IMG/VR virus record: IMGVR_UViG_3300042691_005306
Location: 1 to 26,199 of that record
DNA length: 26,199 bases
Source: a virus
Strand: one strand, 5' to 3'
The notes below the pieces were generated by a model. It ran no database searches. It was not told the origin of the DNA and saw only the letters and a list, made by a program, of their open reading frames with translations. Of this stretch, positions 9,715 through 22,360 are shown one piece after another (position 1 is the first letter of the stretch; every line of letters begins with the position of its first letter). Made by a program: the position numbers and the translations under genes.

Positions 9715-10698
9715 TTACGGGATCTCCTGCCGCACCCGCGCCGTGATTGCATCGTCGTCCATCGTGGGGTTTTCTGATTTAATCTTATCCCACAAAGCCG
9801 CCTGCATGGCAATCTTATCCTGCGGAGACACTGGAGCGGAAAATGCTCCAAGCATCCCGCCCATCCCGCCAGCCGCCTGCTCCGTCGCCTTCTTGGTCTG
9901 CGCGCGAGTGTAGTCCATCTCGGCGCGACCCTTCGATGCGCGATACGTCGCAAGGATCAATTCGCGCGCCGGAGCCTTGGCGTTTCCTTGGCGCAGCTTG
10001 TCAAACGTCTGCATCGCCTCGTACGCCTCCGGCGTCTTCGTCCCGCGCAAGCTGTTAAACCACGCCTCCGCTTCCGACTTTTCCTTGCGCTCGTCCGCCA
10101 TCTGGCCAGCAGTAAGGCGCGGCGCTTCTGGGTAGATCCGGTTGTAGGCGTCAGGGTTCGTCGCCAGCAACTCTGCCGCCGCACGAGAATTCCGCCCACC
10201 CTTGCGCGCGTTCTCTACGAGATCCGTAACGCGTCCGCGCTCGGCCTTGTCTTTTTCTGCCGCGCGCAGCACCGCTGCCATCGTGGTGCGCTCCCGCGCC
10301 TCATCTTCCGTTTCCGGGAGAACGAGCTTCTGTCCGCCCATCGTGATCGACCGCTGAGGCGCAGCGTACCCGCGACTCAGTGCGTCGATGCCACTCTTTG
10401 TGGCGGGAGTTGCCGGAGCGACCCCCGAAGCGGTCGGCATCGCGGAGAACGCAAGGTCGCTAATCGCTTTCCGCGCCTCCGCCTGCGGAGCGGCGATTTG
10501 CTCGCCGGTCTTCCACCCCTGCGCCTGAAGTCCCGCCAGCTGCATGGCGAGCGATTGCGCGTCGAGCTTTTCCTGCCGCTCAAACGCTTTCCGCTCTTTT
10601 TCCTTTTGCGCTGCCAACAGCTCCCGCTGCTGCAATCCTTCGGCCACGCCCGTGACGGCCCCAAGGGCGGCTCGCAGGGCGTTGAATCCTCGTGCCAT
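9715..10698 (-). CDS. Coiled-coil internal virion protein candidate, 327 aa
   Basis: This is a charged helical protein without a recognised enzyme motif. Residues about 20-60 form a coiled coil (LQQRELLAAQKEKERKAFER and on). The middle is Ala/Pro-rich around a short variable segment. The C-terminal third is helical, ending with TMDDDAITARVRQEIP. The ATG at 10698 has AGGAG eight bases upstream. It lies between the glycosyltransferase and the 1084-aa internal protein. Size, composition and place suggest a small core or ejection protein, but this rests on context only. Confidence 0.6.
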   Translation of the reverse strand: MARGFNALRAALGAVTGVAEGLQQRELLAAQKEKERKAFERQEKLDAQSLAMQLAGLQAQGWKTGEQIAAPQAEARKAISDLAFSAMPTASGVAPATPATKSGIDALSRGYAAPQRSITMGGQKLVLPETEDEARERTTMAAVLRAAEKDKAERGRVTDLVENARKGGRNSRAAAELLATNPDAYNRIYPEAPRLTAGQMADERKEKSEAEAWFNSLRGTKTPEAYEAMQTFDKLRQGNAKAPARELILATYRASKGRAEMDYTRAQTKKATEQAAGGMGGMLGAFSAPVSPQDKIAMQAALWDKIKSENPTMDDDAITARVRQEIP

Positions 10699-10710: not shown

Positions 10711-11664
10711 TTACTGAACCGGAAGGTATTGCACACCATAGGCCCGAGGTGCCACGGTGCGGGTGAGATAATTCACGCCAGAAAACTCGGCAAAGTCCTG
10801 CAACGTCCGCTGGTTGCCCAGCCCAAAGATGCCTAACGACTCGCCCGTGTAGAGCGCCTTCTGGCGTTCGACAGACAAGGCTTCATACTGCCACCAGCGG
10901 GTCTTGCGCTGGGTATCATGTTCGGCGTTCCACTGCGTCGGACGGATGCTCTGCTCAACGTTGTTGTACAGATGGTAGAACGGGGGCTGCACTGGATGCC
11001 ACAAGTCATACCCGTGCGTGTAGAGCCTGACCGACCACGCTTGTTCTTCCCCGTAGAAGTAAAGCAGCGGATCGTGCGGCACATCCATAACGACCCGTCC
11101 CGGCGCAATCACTAGCCCAGCGGCGAGATAATGCCCGCGTACCGGCTGATCTACGCCACAGTATTCGCCATGATACCAGAGCGTCCACTTCCCGTCCTCA
11201 AACACGGAATCCTTGTTGACGGCATTTGCGACCACCCCGCCCCCGCCCGTAAAATCTAGGTCTACGCCAGTGTTGGTTCTGGTATACGGAGCAGGGTAGG
11301 ACGAATAGATGCACCGATCCGTTGGGGCGTTTGCCATCAGCGTCTCTACCCAGTTATCCCACCCCGGTGTGGCATAGGTGTGCGCGTCAAGCTGGAGATA
11401 GATATCCTCGCCCCGATACGCCTGTGCCCCGAGCGCCCGAGCGAAGCAGACGCCACGCGCTTGCCGGTAGTCGAGCGCCAGATAGGTAATCGCATGAGCG
11501 AACGGGGCCAGCGTCGTGTGCAGCTCCTTGCCGATCTCACACTGATCGACAATGGAGACATGCACACGCTCTGGCTTTGCCGCATGGGTGAAGAGCGTCC
11601 CAATCGTGAAGGGTAGCTCTCCATCCATGTAGGAGGGGATATTGACGAAGATCGTCGCGGCCAT
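10711..11664 (-). CDS. GT60/PF11397-type glycosyltransferase (GlcNAc family)
   Basis: This is a complete 317-aa GT-A-fold glycosyltransferase of the family named for the Dictyostelium Skp1-hydroxyproline GlcNAc-transferase. Visible family motifs run in order: IFVNIPSYMDGELPFT (5-20), VSIVDQ (36-41), ARGVCFARALGAQAYRGED (69-87) and YLQLDAHTYATPGWD (89-103). D93-A-H is the metal and sugar-nucleotide site, DSH in many relatives. Then come SSYPAPY (121-127), LAAGLVIAPG (180-189), VPHDPLLYFYGEE (195-207), YTHGYDLWHP (215-224), YHLY (230-233) and LGIFGLGNQRTLQDFAEFSGV (277-297). There is no signal peptide or membrane segment, so it acts in the cytoplasm. The donor is probably a UDP-sugar, but identity is not readable. 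No clear ribosome site precedes the ATG, so coupling to the upstream repeat protein is likely. A virion protein is the plausible substrate. Confidence 0.88.
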   Translation of the reverse strand: MAATIFVNIPSYMDGELPFTIGTLFTHAAKPERVHVSIVDQCEIGKELHTTLAPFAHAITYLALDYRQARGVCFARALGAQAYRGEDIYLQLDAHTYATPGWDNWVETLMANAPTDRCIYSSYPAPYTRTNTGVDLDFTGGGGVVANAVNKDSVFEDGKWTLWYHGEYCGVDQPVRGHYLAAGLVIAPGRVVMDVPHDPLLYFYGEEQAWSVRLYTHGYDLWHPVQPPFYHLYNNVEQSIRPTQWNAEHDTQRKTRWWQYEALSVERQKALYTGESLGIFGLGNQRTLQDFAEFSGVNYLTRTVAPRAYGVQYLPVQ

Positions 11665-11670
11665 CGGGGA

Positions 11671-13986
11671 TTAATCAACCAGTGGGGTAACCTTCCAGCC
11701 CGTCCCATCATAGAACACGCCGTACCCGCCAATCTTATACCGCACCCCAGTCTTTGGCGTATCAAACACGCTTTCCATAGGCGTGCCCATCGCACTGGCC
11801 TTGGTAAGATACCCGTTGGCGTCAAGCTGTGGTGCCCAGTTGCTCCACGGGGACACGGTGCTTGTCGTCGGTGGCGTGGTCGTCGTCTGCCCCGTGATCG
11901 GCGGCGTCGTCGTAACCGGCGGCTGCGAGGTGTTGGTTGGCGGCTTTGTAGTGTATGGTGGCTGCGTCGTGCTGAAGTTCTTGAACGCATTCGCCAGATC
12001 GCTGTTCTGGAGGATCTGCGCCAGCTGCAACATCATCTGGTTCCGCGCCACCTGACCCTGCACCGTCTCTGCCGTCGTGCGCTTGCCCGTCTCTGGATCA
12101 TAGACATAGCCAGACACTTCAGACATCCCAAGAATCTTCTTGAGCTGATTCTCCAGATCGAACTGACGGCCCTGCTCCTTTAGCTGCTTATCAAGACGCT
12201 CCATCTGCGCCTTGTTGTCCAGCGCCGCCATGTCCTGCTGCGCCTTCAACCGCGCTTCATCTAGCGTGATTTGCTGGCCAGACCGCAAGAACTCATTGGC
12301 GATCTGCGTGGTGCGCGTCTGGATTTCCGCTTCCCGATACGCCTTTTCGTTGTCGATCTCCTGACCGCGCAAGCCAAATTCCTGCTTAATCTGATCGGCC
12401 TTCAGATTCAGCTCGTCACGGTTCAGCCCAAGCTGCTGTGCGCGGTAATCCTTGTCCGCGTTGAGCTTATCACGCTCCAGCGTATTCAGCGCAAGGTTCT
12501 GAGCTTCCGTCAGGTCCAAACGCCGCCCTTCAAGCTTGGCCTGATTCTCGACTTCCTTGGTCTTGAGCGCCAGCTCCTGAATCGTAAACCCGTTTTGCTG
12601 CATCCGTGCGGCTTTCTGCTCATCCAGCGAAAGGCCGAACTGCTCACCCTGCTGCTTGATCTTCTGCTTTTCCAACTCGTTCTGTGCAAGGTTCTGCGCT
12701 TCCTGCAAATCCAGCGAGCGGTTTTGCTGCTGCACCTGCATGGTCTTCAGCGCCAGATCCTTGGACGAAATGTCGTACTGCTGCAAACGGCCAGCCTTCT
12801 GCTCATCCAACGTCAGGCCAAACTCCGTTGCCTGCTGACGAAGCTTATCCGCTTCCAGCTTGTTTTGCGCAATGTACTGCGCTTCGGTGATCGACATCTG
12901 CCGGCCTTGCAGCTCCGCTTCCTGCTTAAGCTGCTGCGCCTTGAGGCCAAGGTCTTGCACCGACAATCCATACTGCTGAAGCCGTGACGCCTTCTGTTCG
13001 TCCAGCGTCAATCCAAACTGACGCGCCTGCTCGTTGATCTTCTGTTGTTCAAGCGACAGCCCGCCAAGACCCAGCTTTTCCTTAAGTGCCTGCTCAATGT
13101 CGAACTGCTTGGCCGCCTGCGTCTGCTGACCCTTGTATTGACCAGTCAGGCCAGCAATCGCCAGTTCACGCGCTGCGGCCTGCTCTTCAGCGGCCAGCGT
13201 CTTGCCTCCACCGTAAGTGCCAGTCAACGCCGCTTCTTGCAACTTCCGCTGGTTCTCTGCTTCTTGCGCTGCAAGCGTAGCCTGCCCGCCGAACATGCCA
13301 GTCAGCTCGCCCATCTTCAACTCATTGAGCTGTTCTTGCGACATGTACTTCGAGGCTTCCTGCAATGCAGACAACCGATCTGCCGCCTGCGTCGTGGCAA
13401 ACTCCCGCAACAAGTTGGCATCCAGCGTGGACAACGCACGGGCCTGCTGCCCCGCCAGATCGCCCATGCGACCACCGCCAATAGACGAAGCCGACAAGCC
13501 GCGACGGGCCAGCTCTTCGTTCAGCGCCTGCTGCTGCCCCTGATACTCCGCTTGTAGATTGGCGGCCTGTGCGCCACGGACCTGCTGGAATTCTTCGGTG
13601 CCGTAGCGCGACGGCGCAGCCATGAACCCTTGCAGGTTGCGCTGCAACTGCGCCTTAAACTGATCGGCAACATTAGACGATGGTGGTTCTTCTGACTGCC
13701 GATAGTACTGCACCTGCCCATCCATTGCCTGAATGCCAGCCGCACCGCTCTGTCCTTGCGGAAGGGCGGCTCGCTCTTGCTGGGGAGGACGCGCAGGACG
13801 CGGGTATCCCTGCTGCTGCATTTGGGAAAAGGTCTGATACCCGCCCCCGTACTGCTGGCGGCGCGTTTGGCGCTGCTGCGCCTGCGGGTTATACGTCTGC
13901 TGCTGGCCACCACCCGTCGTATTGGTAGTGCCCAACTGTTCGTTGTAGCCGGGAAGGCTGCCGAATGCGGTATTGTAGGTGGCCAT
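11671..13986 (-). CDS. Coiled-coil repeat virion protein with Pro/Thr-rich linker, 771 aa
   Basis: This is a long, highly helical Gln/Glu/Ala-rich protein, likely an internal core, ejection or structural rod protein. The N-terminus (1-100) is Gln/Gly/Pro-rich and low in complexity. Three tandem 26-residue repeats beginning LTG follow at 228-304. Next are three to four repeats of about 65 residues at 324-518, keyed by FGLTLDEQKA, LQQYG and TEAQNLAQNKLE. These are coiled-coil repeats of uniform length. A Pro/Thr-rich, mucin-like linker (672-711) leads to a small 60-residue C-terminal domain ending GGYGVFYDGTGWKVTPLVD. The ATG at 13986 has only a weak GAGAA site. The glycosyltransferase gene starts six bases after its stop. 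A tape-measure role is unlikely because the tail genes are of podovirus type. Confidence 0.72.
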   Translation of the reverse strand: MATYNTAFGSLPGYNEQLGTTNTTGGGQQQTYNPQAQQRQTRRQQYGGGYQTFSQMQQQGYPRPARPPQQERAALPQGQSGAAGIQAMDGQVQYYRQSEEPPSSNVADQFKAQLQRNLQGFMAAPSRYGTEEFQQVRGAQAANLQAEYQGQQQALNEELARRGLSASSIGGGRMGDLAGQQARALSTLDANLLREFATTQAADRLSALQEASKYMSQEQLNELKMGELTGMFGGQATLAAQEAENQRKLQEAALTGTYGGGKTLAAEEQAAARELAIAGLTGQYKGQQTQAAKQFDIEQALKEKLGLGGLSLEQQKINEQARQFGLTLDEQKASRLQQYGLSVQDLGLKAQQLKQEAELQGRQMSITEAQYIAQNKLEADKLRQQATEFGLTLDEQKAGRLQQYDISSKDLALKTMQVQQQNRSLDLQEAQNLAQNELEKQKIKQQGEQFGLSLDEQKAARMQQNGFTIQELALKTKEVENQAKLEGRRLDLTEAQNLALNTLERDKLNADKDYRAQQLGLNRDELNLKADQIKQEFGLRGQEIDNEKAYREAEIQTRTTQIANEFLRSGQQITLDEARLKAQQDMAALDNKAQMERLDKQLKEQGRQFDLENQLKKILGMSEVSGYVYDPETGKRTTAETVQGQVARNQMMLQLAQILQNSDLANAFKNFSTTQPPYTTKPPTNTSQPPVTTTPPITGQTTTTPPTTSTVSPWSNWAPQLDANGYLTKASAMGTPMESVFDTPKTGVRYKIGGYGVFYDGTGWKVTPLVD
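11854..11973 (-). repeat. Pro/Thr-rich (mucin-like) coding segment
   Basis: Forty codons (residues 672-711 of the 771-aa protein) encode almost only Thr, Pro, Ser and Gln, with recurring TTxPP units such as TTQPP, TTKPP and TTTPP. It links the coiled-coil body to a compact C-terminal domain. Such segments are extended and are classic O-glycosylation sites. Confidence 0.85.
12433..13017 (-). repeat. Tandem ~65-residue coiled-coil repeats
   Basis: Units at residues 324-388 (65 aa), 389-449 (61 aa) and 450-518 (69 aa) share FGL(T/S)LDEQKA at the start and a (T/Q)EAQ-(Y/N)-(I/L)A core. A fourth, decayed unit starts LGLNRDELNLKA at 519. The length changes are of four residues, which shifts the heptad phase. 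Confidence 0.85.
13075..13305 (-). repeat. Three tandem 26-residue LTG repeats
   Basis: Units at residues 228-253, 254-279 and 280-304 begin LTGMFGGQATLAA, LTGTYGGGKTLAA and LTGQYKGQQTQAA. Each continues with a Gln/Ala-rich helix. The pattern LTG-x-(Y/F)-x-G-x-x-T-x-A-A is regular and distinct from the 65-residue repeats that follow. Confidence 0.85.
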
Positions 13987-21046: not shown

Positions 21047-22360
21047 TTAGGAGACGTGGCTGTAGCGGACGGTGTCCGTGTAGCCCGTGATGATGCCGTG
21101 CGCGTTACGCGCCAAGCAGGCCATGTTGCCGTACCACCCGTAGGTGGTCTCGAAGGCATCGCGGCCCTGAATCCAACGCCACGGACCCGCACCCTCGAAC
21201 TCGACGAAGCCCCAATCCTTCGCGTCCACCCACGCCAGCGACGGGAGGTGGAGGAGATAGATCGTGCCAGCCGGGACGTAGTAGTCGAGGTGGCACTTGA
21301 TGCCGCAGATCTCGACGGCCTTGTAACCGCCCTTGATCGTGGTGGCAAACTCGCCAGCGGTGAACCGGCGCTGCGCGGCCATCGACTCCATGATCTTCTT
21401 GCCAACACCCGGAGTCGTCAGCATGAAGAAGTCCTGCGGACGGGTCATGGCATCCTTGCCAGAGCGCCCGTTGATGCGCTGGATGAGATCCCAGATGTCC
21501 GACTCGGTCGGCTGGTTCACGTCCGGCGTATCCGTCCCCGCCACCATCCGCGTCGCATCCCAAATGCCGTAGGTGCTGGCGGAAATGTTGTGGAGGCTGG
21601 CGTAGCTGCCCCCACGGTTGGTGATGTTGACCAGACCGTTCATCGCGGCGTTGAACGACGTATCGCTCGTCGTCGCCTTCACGATCTTGTCCGTCGCGGC
21701 CATGCCAGAGACGGCAGCCGACAGCGTCAGCGTGGCGTTGTCGCCGCTGTTGACGATGTTGGTGATCTGGGCGCGACCCAGCACGGCGTCCGACGACGAC
21801 GTGTCGAGGACGGCGATGTAGTCCCCGATGGAGAGGAGCAGGCCACCCTGCCCCGCGCCAGAGATGCCATACGGCGAGGAGACGATGATCTCCGTGGTGC
21901 TGGTGACCGTGCCAACCAGCGCGACGACACCGTCGGTCTTGTTGTGCAGGGCCTGCTGCATGAGCAGCGTGGAAGCGGACTTGATTTCCTCCATCGTCTT
22001 GGTGGCGATGGTGGTGAAGGCCGCATCCTTGGACTGCGTGCCGACAAACGCGAGGCCGTCGATCTGACGGGTCGTGTAGGCACGAACAACACCGACGTTC
22101 GCCTGCACTTCGCGGGCGGTCGTGTCGGGCGGGAAGTACCCGCTCTGCGAGAACGTGGCACCCGACGGGCGACCCACCACCACGTCGAAGAACACGTTGT
22201 TACCACCCCAGCGCATATTGCGCGGGCCACCCGCCTTCCCCTTCTGGAGCTGCGCGAGCAGCGGCGTGGTCAGGTTCTGCACCTTCTCACGGAACTGGGC
22301 ATACACGTTCTTGAGTAGGCCCGTCAGTTCCGCGTCCGTAATTACGGTCGGATTTGGCAT
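21047..22360 (-). CDS. Major capsid protein
   Basis: This 437-aa protein would build the icosahedral head, with the HK97 fold expected for the group. The N-terminal part is helical (AELTGLLKNVYAQFREKVQN). An elongated loop region follows (RWGGNNVFFDVVVGRPSGAT, GYFPPDTTAREVQANVGVVR), then a long spine helix (AFTTIATKTMEEIKSASTLL). The C-terminal axial domain includes RINGRSGKDAMTRPQDFFML and YYVPAGTIYLLHLPSLAWVD. The ATG at 22360 has the strong site AGGAGG, in keeping with high expression. It follows the scaffold and precedes a capsid-associated protein. Length and place are typical; no cleavage site was identified. Confidence 0.88.
   Translation of the reverse strand: MPNPTVITDAELTGLLKNVYAQFREKVQNLTTPLLAQLQKGKAGGPRNMRWGGNNVFFDVVVGRPSGATFSQSGYFPPDTTAREVQANVGVVRAYTTRQIDGLAFVGTQSKDAAFTTIATKTMEEIKSASTLLMQQALHNKTDGVVALVGTVTSTTEIIVSSPYGISGAGQGGLLLSIGDYIAVLDTSSSDAVLGRAQITNIVNSGDNATLTLSAAVSGMAATDKIVKATTSDTSFNAAMNGLVNITNRGGSYASLHNISASTYGIWDATRMVAGTDTPDVNQPTESDIWDLIQRINGRSGKDAMTRPQDFFMLTTPGVGKKIMESMAAQRRFTAGEFATTIKGGYKAVEICGIKCHLDYYVPAGTIYLLHLPSLAWVDAKDWGFVEFEGAGPWRWIQGRDAFETTYGWYGNMACLARNAHGIITGYTDTVRYSHVS

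Follow-up and report, generated by a model that had tools for sequence, protein, structure and literature searches.

Introduction

A glycosyltransferase gene lies amid the virion genes of an uncultured freshwater phage, and the question raised by this locus is what an enzyme of this kind would glycosylate there. All 26,199 bases of the IMG/VR record from which the phage is known were analysed, and they are referred to below as the window. The protein belongs to family GT60, whose characterised members TcOGNT1/2 of Trypanosoma cruzi and Skp1 Gnt1 (CAZy GT60) share the Pfam family PF11397 with it over its length and act on polypeptides, with Thr or hydroxyproline as the acceptor residue (PMC9472816, PMC6939170). 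The T. cruzi enzyme makes GlcNAc-alpha-Thr on mucin-like proteins (PMC9472816), while the Skp1 enzyme modifies hydroxyproline (PMC6939170).

At least 550 viral stretches encode PF11397, and we found no paper that assigns a substrate to a phage member. The preliminary description of the locus regarded virion glycosylation as rarely documented in phages. In mycobacteriophages, both glycosyltransferase genes and glycosylated virion proteins have been reported (Freeman et al. 2023, as relayed in PMC12619734 and PMC11256854), so that the phenomenon is rare rather than unknown. According to the same text, those glycans are found at the C-termini of capsid and tail-tube proteins, unlike the tract proposed below.

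Results and discussion

A complete GT60 glycosyltransferase

The gene is a real and intact member of a known glycosyltransferase family. Its open reading frame (ORF), on the minus strand, runs from an ATG at position 11664 to a stop that ends at 10711 and encodes 317 amino acids. The protein matches PF11397 with E=1.1e-46 and 160 bits, far above the curated cut-off of 21 (Pfam), and since profile positions 1-40 and 90-348 are both matched, the domain is essentially complete, which bears out the earlier description of a full-length GT60 enzyme. PHROG 24687, "glycosyltransferase", of the PHROG class "moron", also matches it (2e-33). The family motifs were found as described: LDAH (D93-A94-H95), YGEE (204-207) and LGIFGLGNQRTL. 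Inspection by eye of the sequence and of the secondary structure in the model revealed no apparent transmembrane helix or signal peptide, in line with the claim that a membrane anchor is lacking. The features of the locus are collected in Table 1.

Table 1. Features of the glycosyltransferase locus (positions in the window)
Feature	Position	Strand	Evidence or remark
GT60/PF11397 glycosyltransferase, 317 aa, complete	10711..11664	minus	PF11397 E=1.1e-46; GT-A model pLDDT 90.5; best solved matches ppGalNAc-T
D93-A94-H95 (DxH), predicted metal/UDP site	11380..11388	minus	D93 and H95 identical in all 54 homologues
H231, candidate third metal ligand	10972..10974	minus	invariant in 54 homologues; ligand equivalence suggested by motif order
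g771, helix-rich 771-aa protein, probable internal virion protein, candidate acceptor	11671..13986	minus	synteny with homologues in relatives
Thr/Pro-rich tract of g771, residues 672-715	11842..11973	minus	17 T, 5 S and 11 P of 44
327-aa protein, downstream of glycosyltransferase	9715..10698	minus	homologue directly after g771 in relatives that have no glycosyltransferase there
Internal virion protein, 1084 aa	6460..9714	minus	phrog_6651, 5e-17

Predicted fold and active site

An AlphaFold2 model, built like the conservation alignment with 54 viral and bacterial homologues, exhibits a GT-A fold with high confidence (pTM 0.92). The alignment keeps D93, H95 and H231 invariant, and we take these residues, from the order of the motifs, to be the probable counterparts of the three Mn ligands of GalNAc-T2. 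The predicted enzyme is very probably catalytically active. In a Foldseek search of the PDB the first 43 rows were all polypeptide GalNAc-transferases (ppGalNAc-Ts, family GT27), and in VIA-align the same enzymes lead, with Z of 20.3-23.0 over 257-279 residues, followed by the next family at 18.2; polysaccharide enzymes score 15-18. The GT27 enzymes are thus the closest solved folds and have the DxH metal motif in common with the phage protein, but they are only 14-18% identical to it, and the phage protein has no lectin domain and ends after the catalytic domain. Membership of GT27 by sequence was ruled out: PF11397 is the sole match, and phmmer aligned the protein to a ppGalNAc-T with E=0.36. 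A common fold with ppGalNAc-Ts is no proof of the acceptor class.

Relationships to other GT60 proteins

When 58 GT60 proteins, viral and bacterial, were placed in a tree, the window protein joined two relatives from its own phage group (99/92), and these were joined next by three more viral proteins (100/99); the remaining 35 bacterial and 17 viral rows fall outside this clade, and the end branch of the window protein is long. PF11397 was confirmed in at least 554 stretches of viral contigs and is also common in Alphaproteobacteria, Gammaproteobacteria, Cyanobacteria, Actinoplanes, Bacteroidota and others. The view of the enzyme as "eukaryote-like" was therefore abandoned, as its nearest kin in this viral and bacterial tree are phages and then bacteria, and no feature marks it as eukaryotic. 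The T. cruzi enzymes differ from it in this kinship as well as in their location in the Golgi.

Among named phages, XacN1, RAS14 and CM1, with genomes of 320-385 kb, encode homologues that are 25-28% identical to the window protein and carry an extra C-terminal region. The GT60 gene of XacN1 is followed by a carbamoyltransferase gene (L003, 4001-7718), and carbamoyltransferases also occur among the neighbours of environmental viral GT60 genes. Another viral GT60 protein (L111:3615-5084) has an N-terminal extension of about 170 residues, methyltransferase-like by eye, and its gene adjoins that of a DNA polymerase.

Such neighbours bear on the possibility that the enzyme glycosylates hypermodified phage DNA, as virus-encoded glycosyltransferases are known to do (cited in PMC12619734). 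The carbamoyltransferase gene of XacN1, a similarly sized unannotated gene at that place in RAS14 and the DNA polymerase gene beside one close homologue would suit such a role. Yet no thymidylate-synthase-type enzyme, the expected hydroxymethylase, was found in the window and five relatives, most of which are partial records, and when most ORFs of two relatives with near-complete records were assigned to Pfam families, no TET-like or other base-modification enzyme appeared besides a single C5 methylase. Given that partner enzymes of this kind were not found in these records, we consider DNA to be a very unlikely target.

An accessory gene in the virion block

All assignable ORFs of the window lie on the minus strand. 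In that direction they encode the portal, a probable scaffold (by position only), the major capsid protein, an SU10-type adaptor, a virion structural protein, an S74 tail fibre, g270, g771, the glycosyltransferase, the 327-aa protein, the 1084-aa internal virion protein, small lysis-type genes with a CHAP endolysin, an exonuclease, a replication protein and a primase/helicase. (An ARAGORN tRNA-Pro at 21172-21244, on the minus strand within the major capsid ORF, is probably a false positive.) The glycosyltransferase gene starts 6 bases after g771, and the next gene follows 12 bases on. The adaptor, tail fibre and internal virion protein fit a virion block, so the seat of the enzyme among virion genes was correctly described.

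The weight placed on that seat was not borne out by the relatives. Related contigs were collected with the capsid and exonuclease proteins, and 89 distinct records, many of them partial, were searched whole; pattern scans by the glycosyltransferase or the internal virion protein alone yielded nothing, and alignments were needed. PF11397 was found in 3 of the 89 (G031 and G033, nearly identical to each other, and G061), a count that is a lower bound because the records are mostly partial. All three carry the gene between the lysis genes and g4736, away from the junction of g771 and the 327-aa protein, while in five others (G045, G014, G013, G008, G028) the homologues of these two proteins abut directly with no glycosyltransferase between them. 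We rejected the idea of a conserved slot in the virion block; the gene is accessory and occupies at least two sites, and its place among virion genes alone therefore cannot identify the substrate.

An accessory, movable gene within one phage group, assigned to a "moron" class and adjoining a lysis gene in relatives, is what would be expected if the enzyme modified a host molecule, either a glycan of the cell envelope or a protein, to exclude superinfecting phages or to take over the cell. This role is quite unlikely, as the protein has no obvious membrane segment, no flippase gene partners it, and the nearest solved folds act on polypeptides, although the polysaccharide enzymes come within reach with the scores given above. 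The patchy distribution would likewise suit an inactive or decaying cargo gene, but the intact ORF, the tight spacing of its neighbours and the retention of the metal-site residues among relatives just 40% identical leave this explanation highly improbable. The G+C content of the glycosyltransferase gene (0.586) and of g771 (0.585), together spanning 10711-13986, is lower than that of the other measured window genes (0.61-0.65), and the two may have been acquired together.

A Thr/Pro-rich tract in the adjacent protein

Since a GT60 enzyme of T. cruzi acts on mucin Thr, a Thr/Pro-rich tract is a natural place to look for the acceptor, and g771 is the sole ORF of the window with at least 10 S/T and at least 6 P in 30 residues. 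Its tract, STTQPPYTTKPPTNTSQPPVTTTPPITGQTTTTPPTTSTVSPWS, lies near the end of the protein, ahead of a small domain of predicted beta structure. The model of g771 is mostly helical and poor overall, with the tract as coil (pLDDT about 30) between the helices and the beta domain. The protein is probably an internal virion protein, a location suggested by synteny; its matches to FlgO and to an annealing protein are probably coiled-coil artefacts.

Among g771 homologues, a tract with at least 12 S/T in 30 residues occurs in 3 of 3 lineages that bear the glycosyltransferase and in 4 of 21 records that lack it (p~0.02, with three positives and a threshold picked after the data had been viewed). Strong tracts are also present in some relatives whose records contain no PF11397, such as G011, a 39.5-kb record in which the Thr tract of the g771 homologue (L094:6806-9556), TTTPTTTTTNTPTTTTTTTPTTTTPTTTNP, is very strong. 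The corresponding linker of one close relative is poly-Gly, so the composition of the linker may drift freely. A further point against g771 as the acceptor is that the glycosyltransferase gene is not adjacent to it in the relatives that carry both.

This variability would be expected if the tract were merely a flexible linker and the enzyme O-glycosylated another virion protein, such as a tail fibre, the capsid or an internal virion protein. The evidence from family and fold applies identically to that case, and Hoc-like Ig decoration, lectin-like and muzzle-type proteins are among those encoded near viral GT60 genes. No second candidate stands out in the window, however: the one strong tract there belongs to g771, whose gene lies beside that of the enzyme, and we regard another virion acceptor as unlikely.

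Association of GT60 genes with Thr/Pro-rich ORFs

Thr/Pro-rich ORFs beside the enzyme were first noticed in a scan of 83 viral GT60 loci. When 52 non-redundant viral loci were counted as a first set, such ORFs made up 25 of 182 within two genes of the GT60 gene and 6 of 198 at a distance of four or more; in comparison loci, also viral and fetched by capsid or exonuclease queries, they made up 23 of 1895. Tracts rich in Ser-Pro, Ala-Pro, Gly, Asn/Gln or Lys/Glu exhibited no significant enrichment near GT60 in this set. In a permutation over 32 longer GT60 contigs, 14 had a Thr/Pro ORF no more than two genes away, where 2.6 were expected (p<1e-4), a signal that persists among ORFs of at least 300 residues. 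In over half of the contigs, no such ORF lies within two genes of GT60. The p-values of the first set are exploratory, since the thresholds were set after a first look. Bacterial GT60 loci follow the same trend (10/186 vs 2/161, p=0.03).

A second set comprised 56 further loci centred on one GT60 clade, with thresholds fixed beforehand. Here the counts were 16/203 vs 22/591 (p=0.017), with p=0.27 in a permutation by locus; comparison with distant regions of the same contigs gave p=0.03, a signal lost when this comparison was restricted to ORFs of at least 300 residues (p=0.35). This set lends the association weak support. We read the association as real but incomplete and stronger in some lineages, and part of it may stem from the presence of both kinds of gene in late modules.

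Proposed function

The preliminary description had argued for modification of phage proteins from the position of the gene and the lack of an anchor. The argument from location fails, but modification of phage proteins is still the best-supported reading, because of the ppGalNAc-T-like fold, the Thr/Pro tract of the neighbour, the chemistry of GT60 enzymes on mucin Thr and the partial association at genome level. The family, fold, conserved site, tract and partial association are established by computation. Protein O-glycosylation, with all phage-protein targets taken together, is the likeliest function and a distinctly probable one.

In the specific form that we propose, a soluble cytoplasmic GT60 enzyme would act like a polypeptide GalNAc/GlcNAc-transferase, using a host-made UDP-sugar, most likely UDP-GlcNAc, and a divalent metal held at D93/H95/H231. 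Before virion assembly, the sugar would be joined by an alpha-O link to threonines of a phage protein where it is flexible and rich in Thr and Pro; the first candidate acceptor here would be the 672-715 tract of g771, the product of the gene immediately upstream. The phage might benefit, for example, from an exposed linker kept extended and protease-resistant, or from masking of the particle. We infer the activity, the donor and the acceptor, and assign a probability of about 0.5 to cytoplasmic Thr O-glycosylation of the g771 tract by this enzyme. A 2OG-Fe oxygenase was sought with one Pfam family, PF13640, which matched nothing in the window record and five relatives (mostly partial); Thr is therefore a likelier acceptor than hydroxyproline, and a route like that of Skp1 is less likely.

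With one enzyme and one 44-residue acceptor peptide specified, the proposal lends itself to a direct test in E. coli. Should it prove correct, mucin-type O-glycosylation of virion proteins would be in use among phages, with consequences for particle stability and recognition, and a simple tool for bacterial O-glycosylation could follow. More tentatively, and with considerable doubt, mucin-type O-glycosylation may have a widely distributed viral equivalent in the phage GT60 proteins, cytoplasmic enzymes that would coat the Thr/Pro linkers of virion proteins or adhesins, frequently from beside the gene of the acceptor, with hundreds of cases in environmental phages.

The viral GT60 loci also exhibit other arrangements. 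Six of them (L119, L123, L130, L132, L145, L147) have a conserved neighbourhood with Hsp20-like and PhoH-like genes. Tandem GT60 genes occur in G134, G099, G106, G109, G115 and G123, and in the first of these two GT60 domains lie within a single frame of 856 residues (G134:C1:109634-111787).
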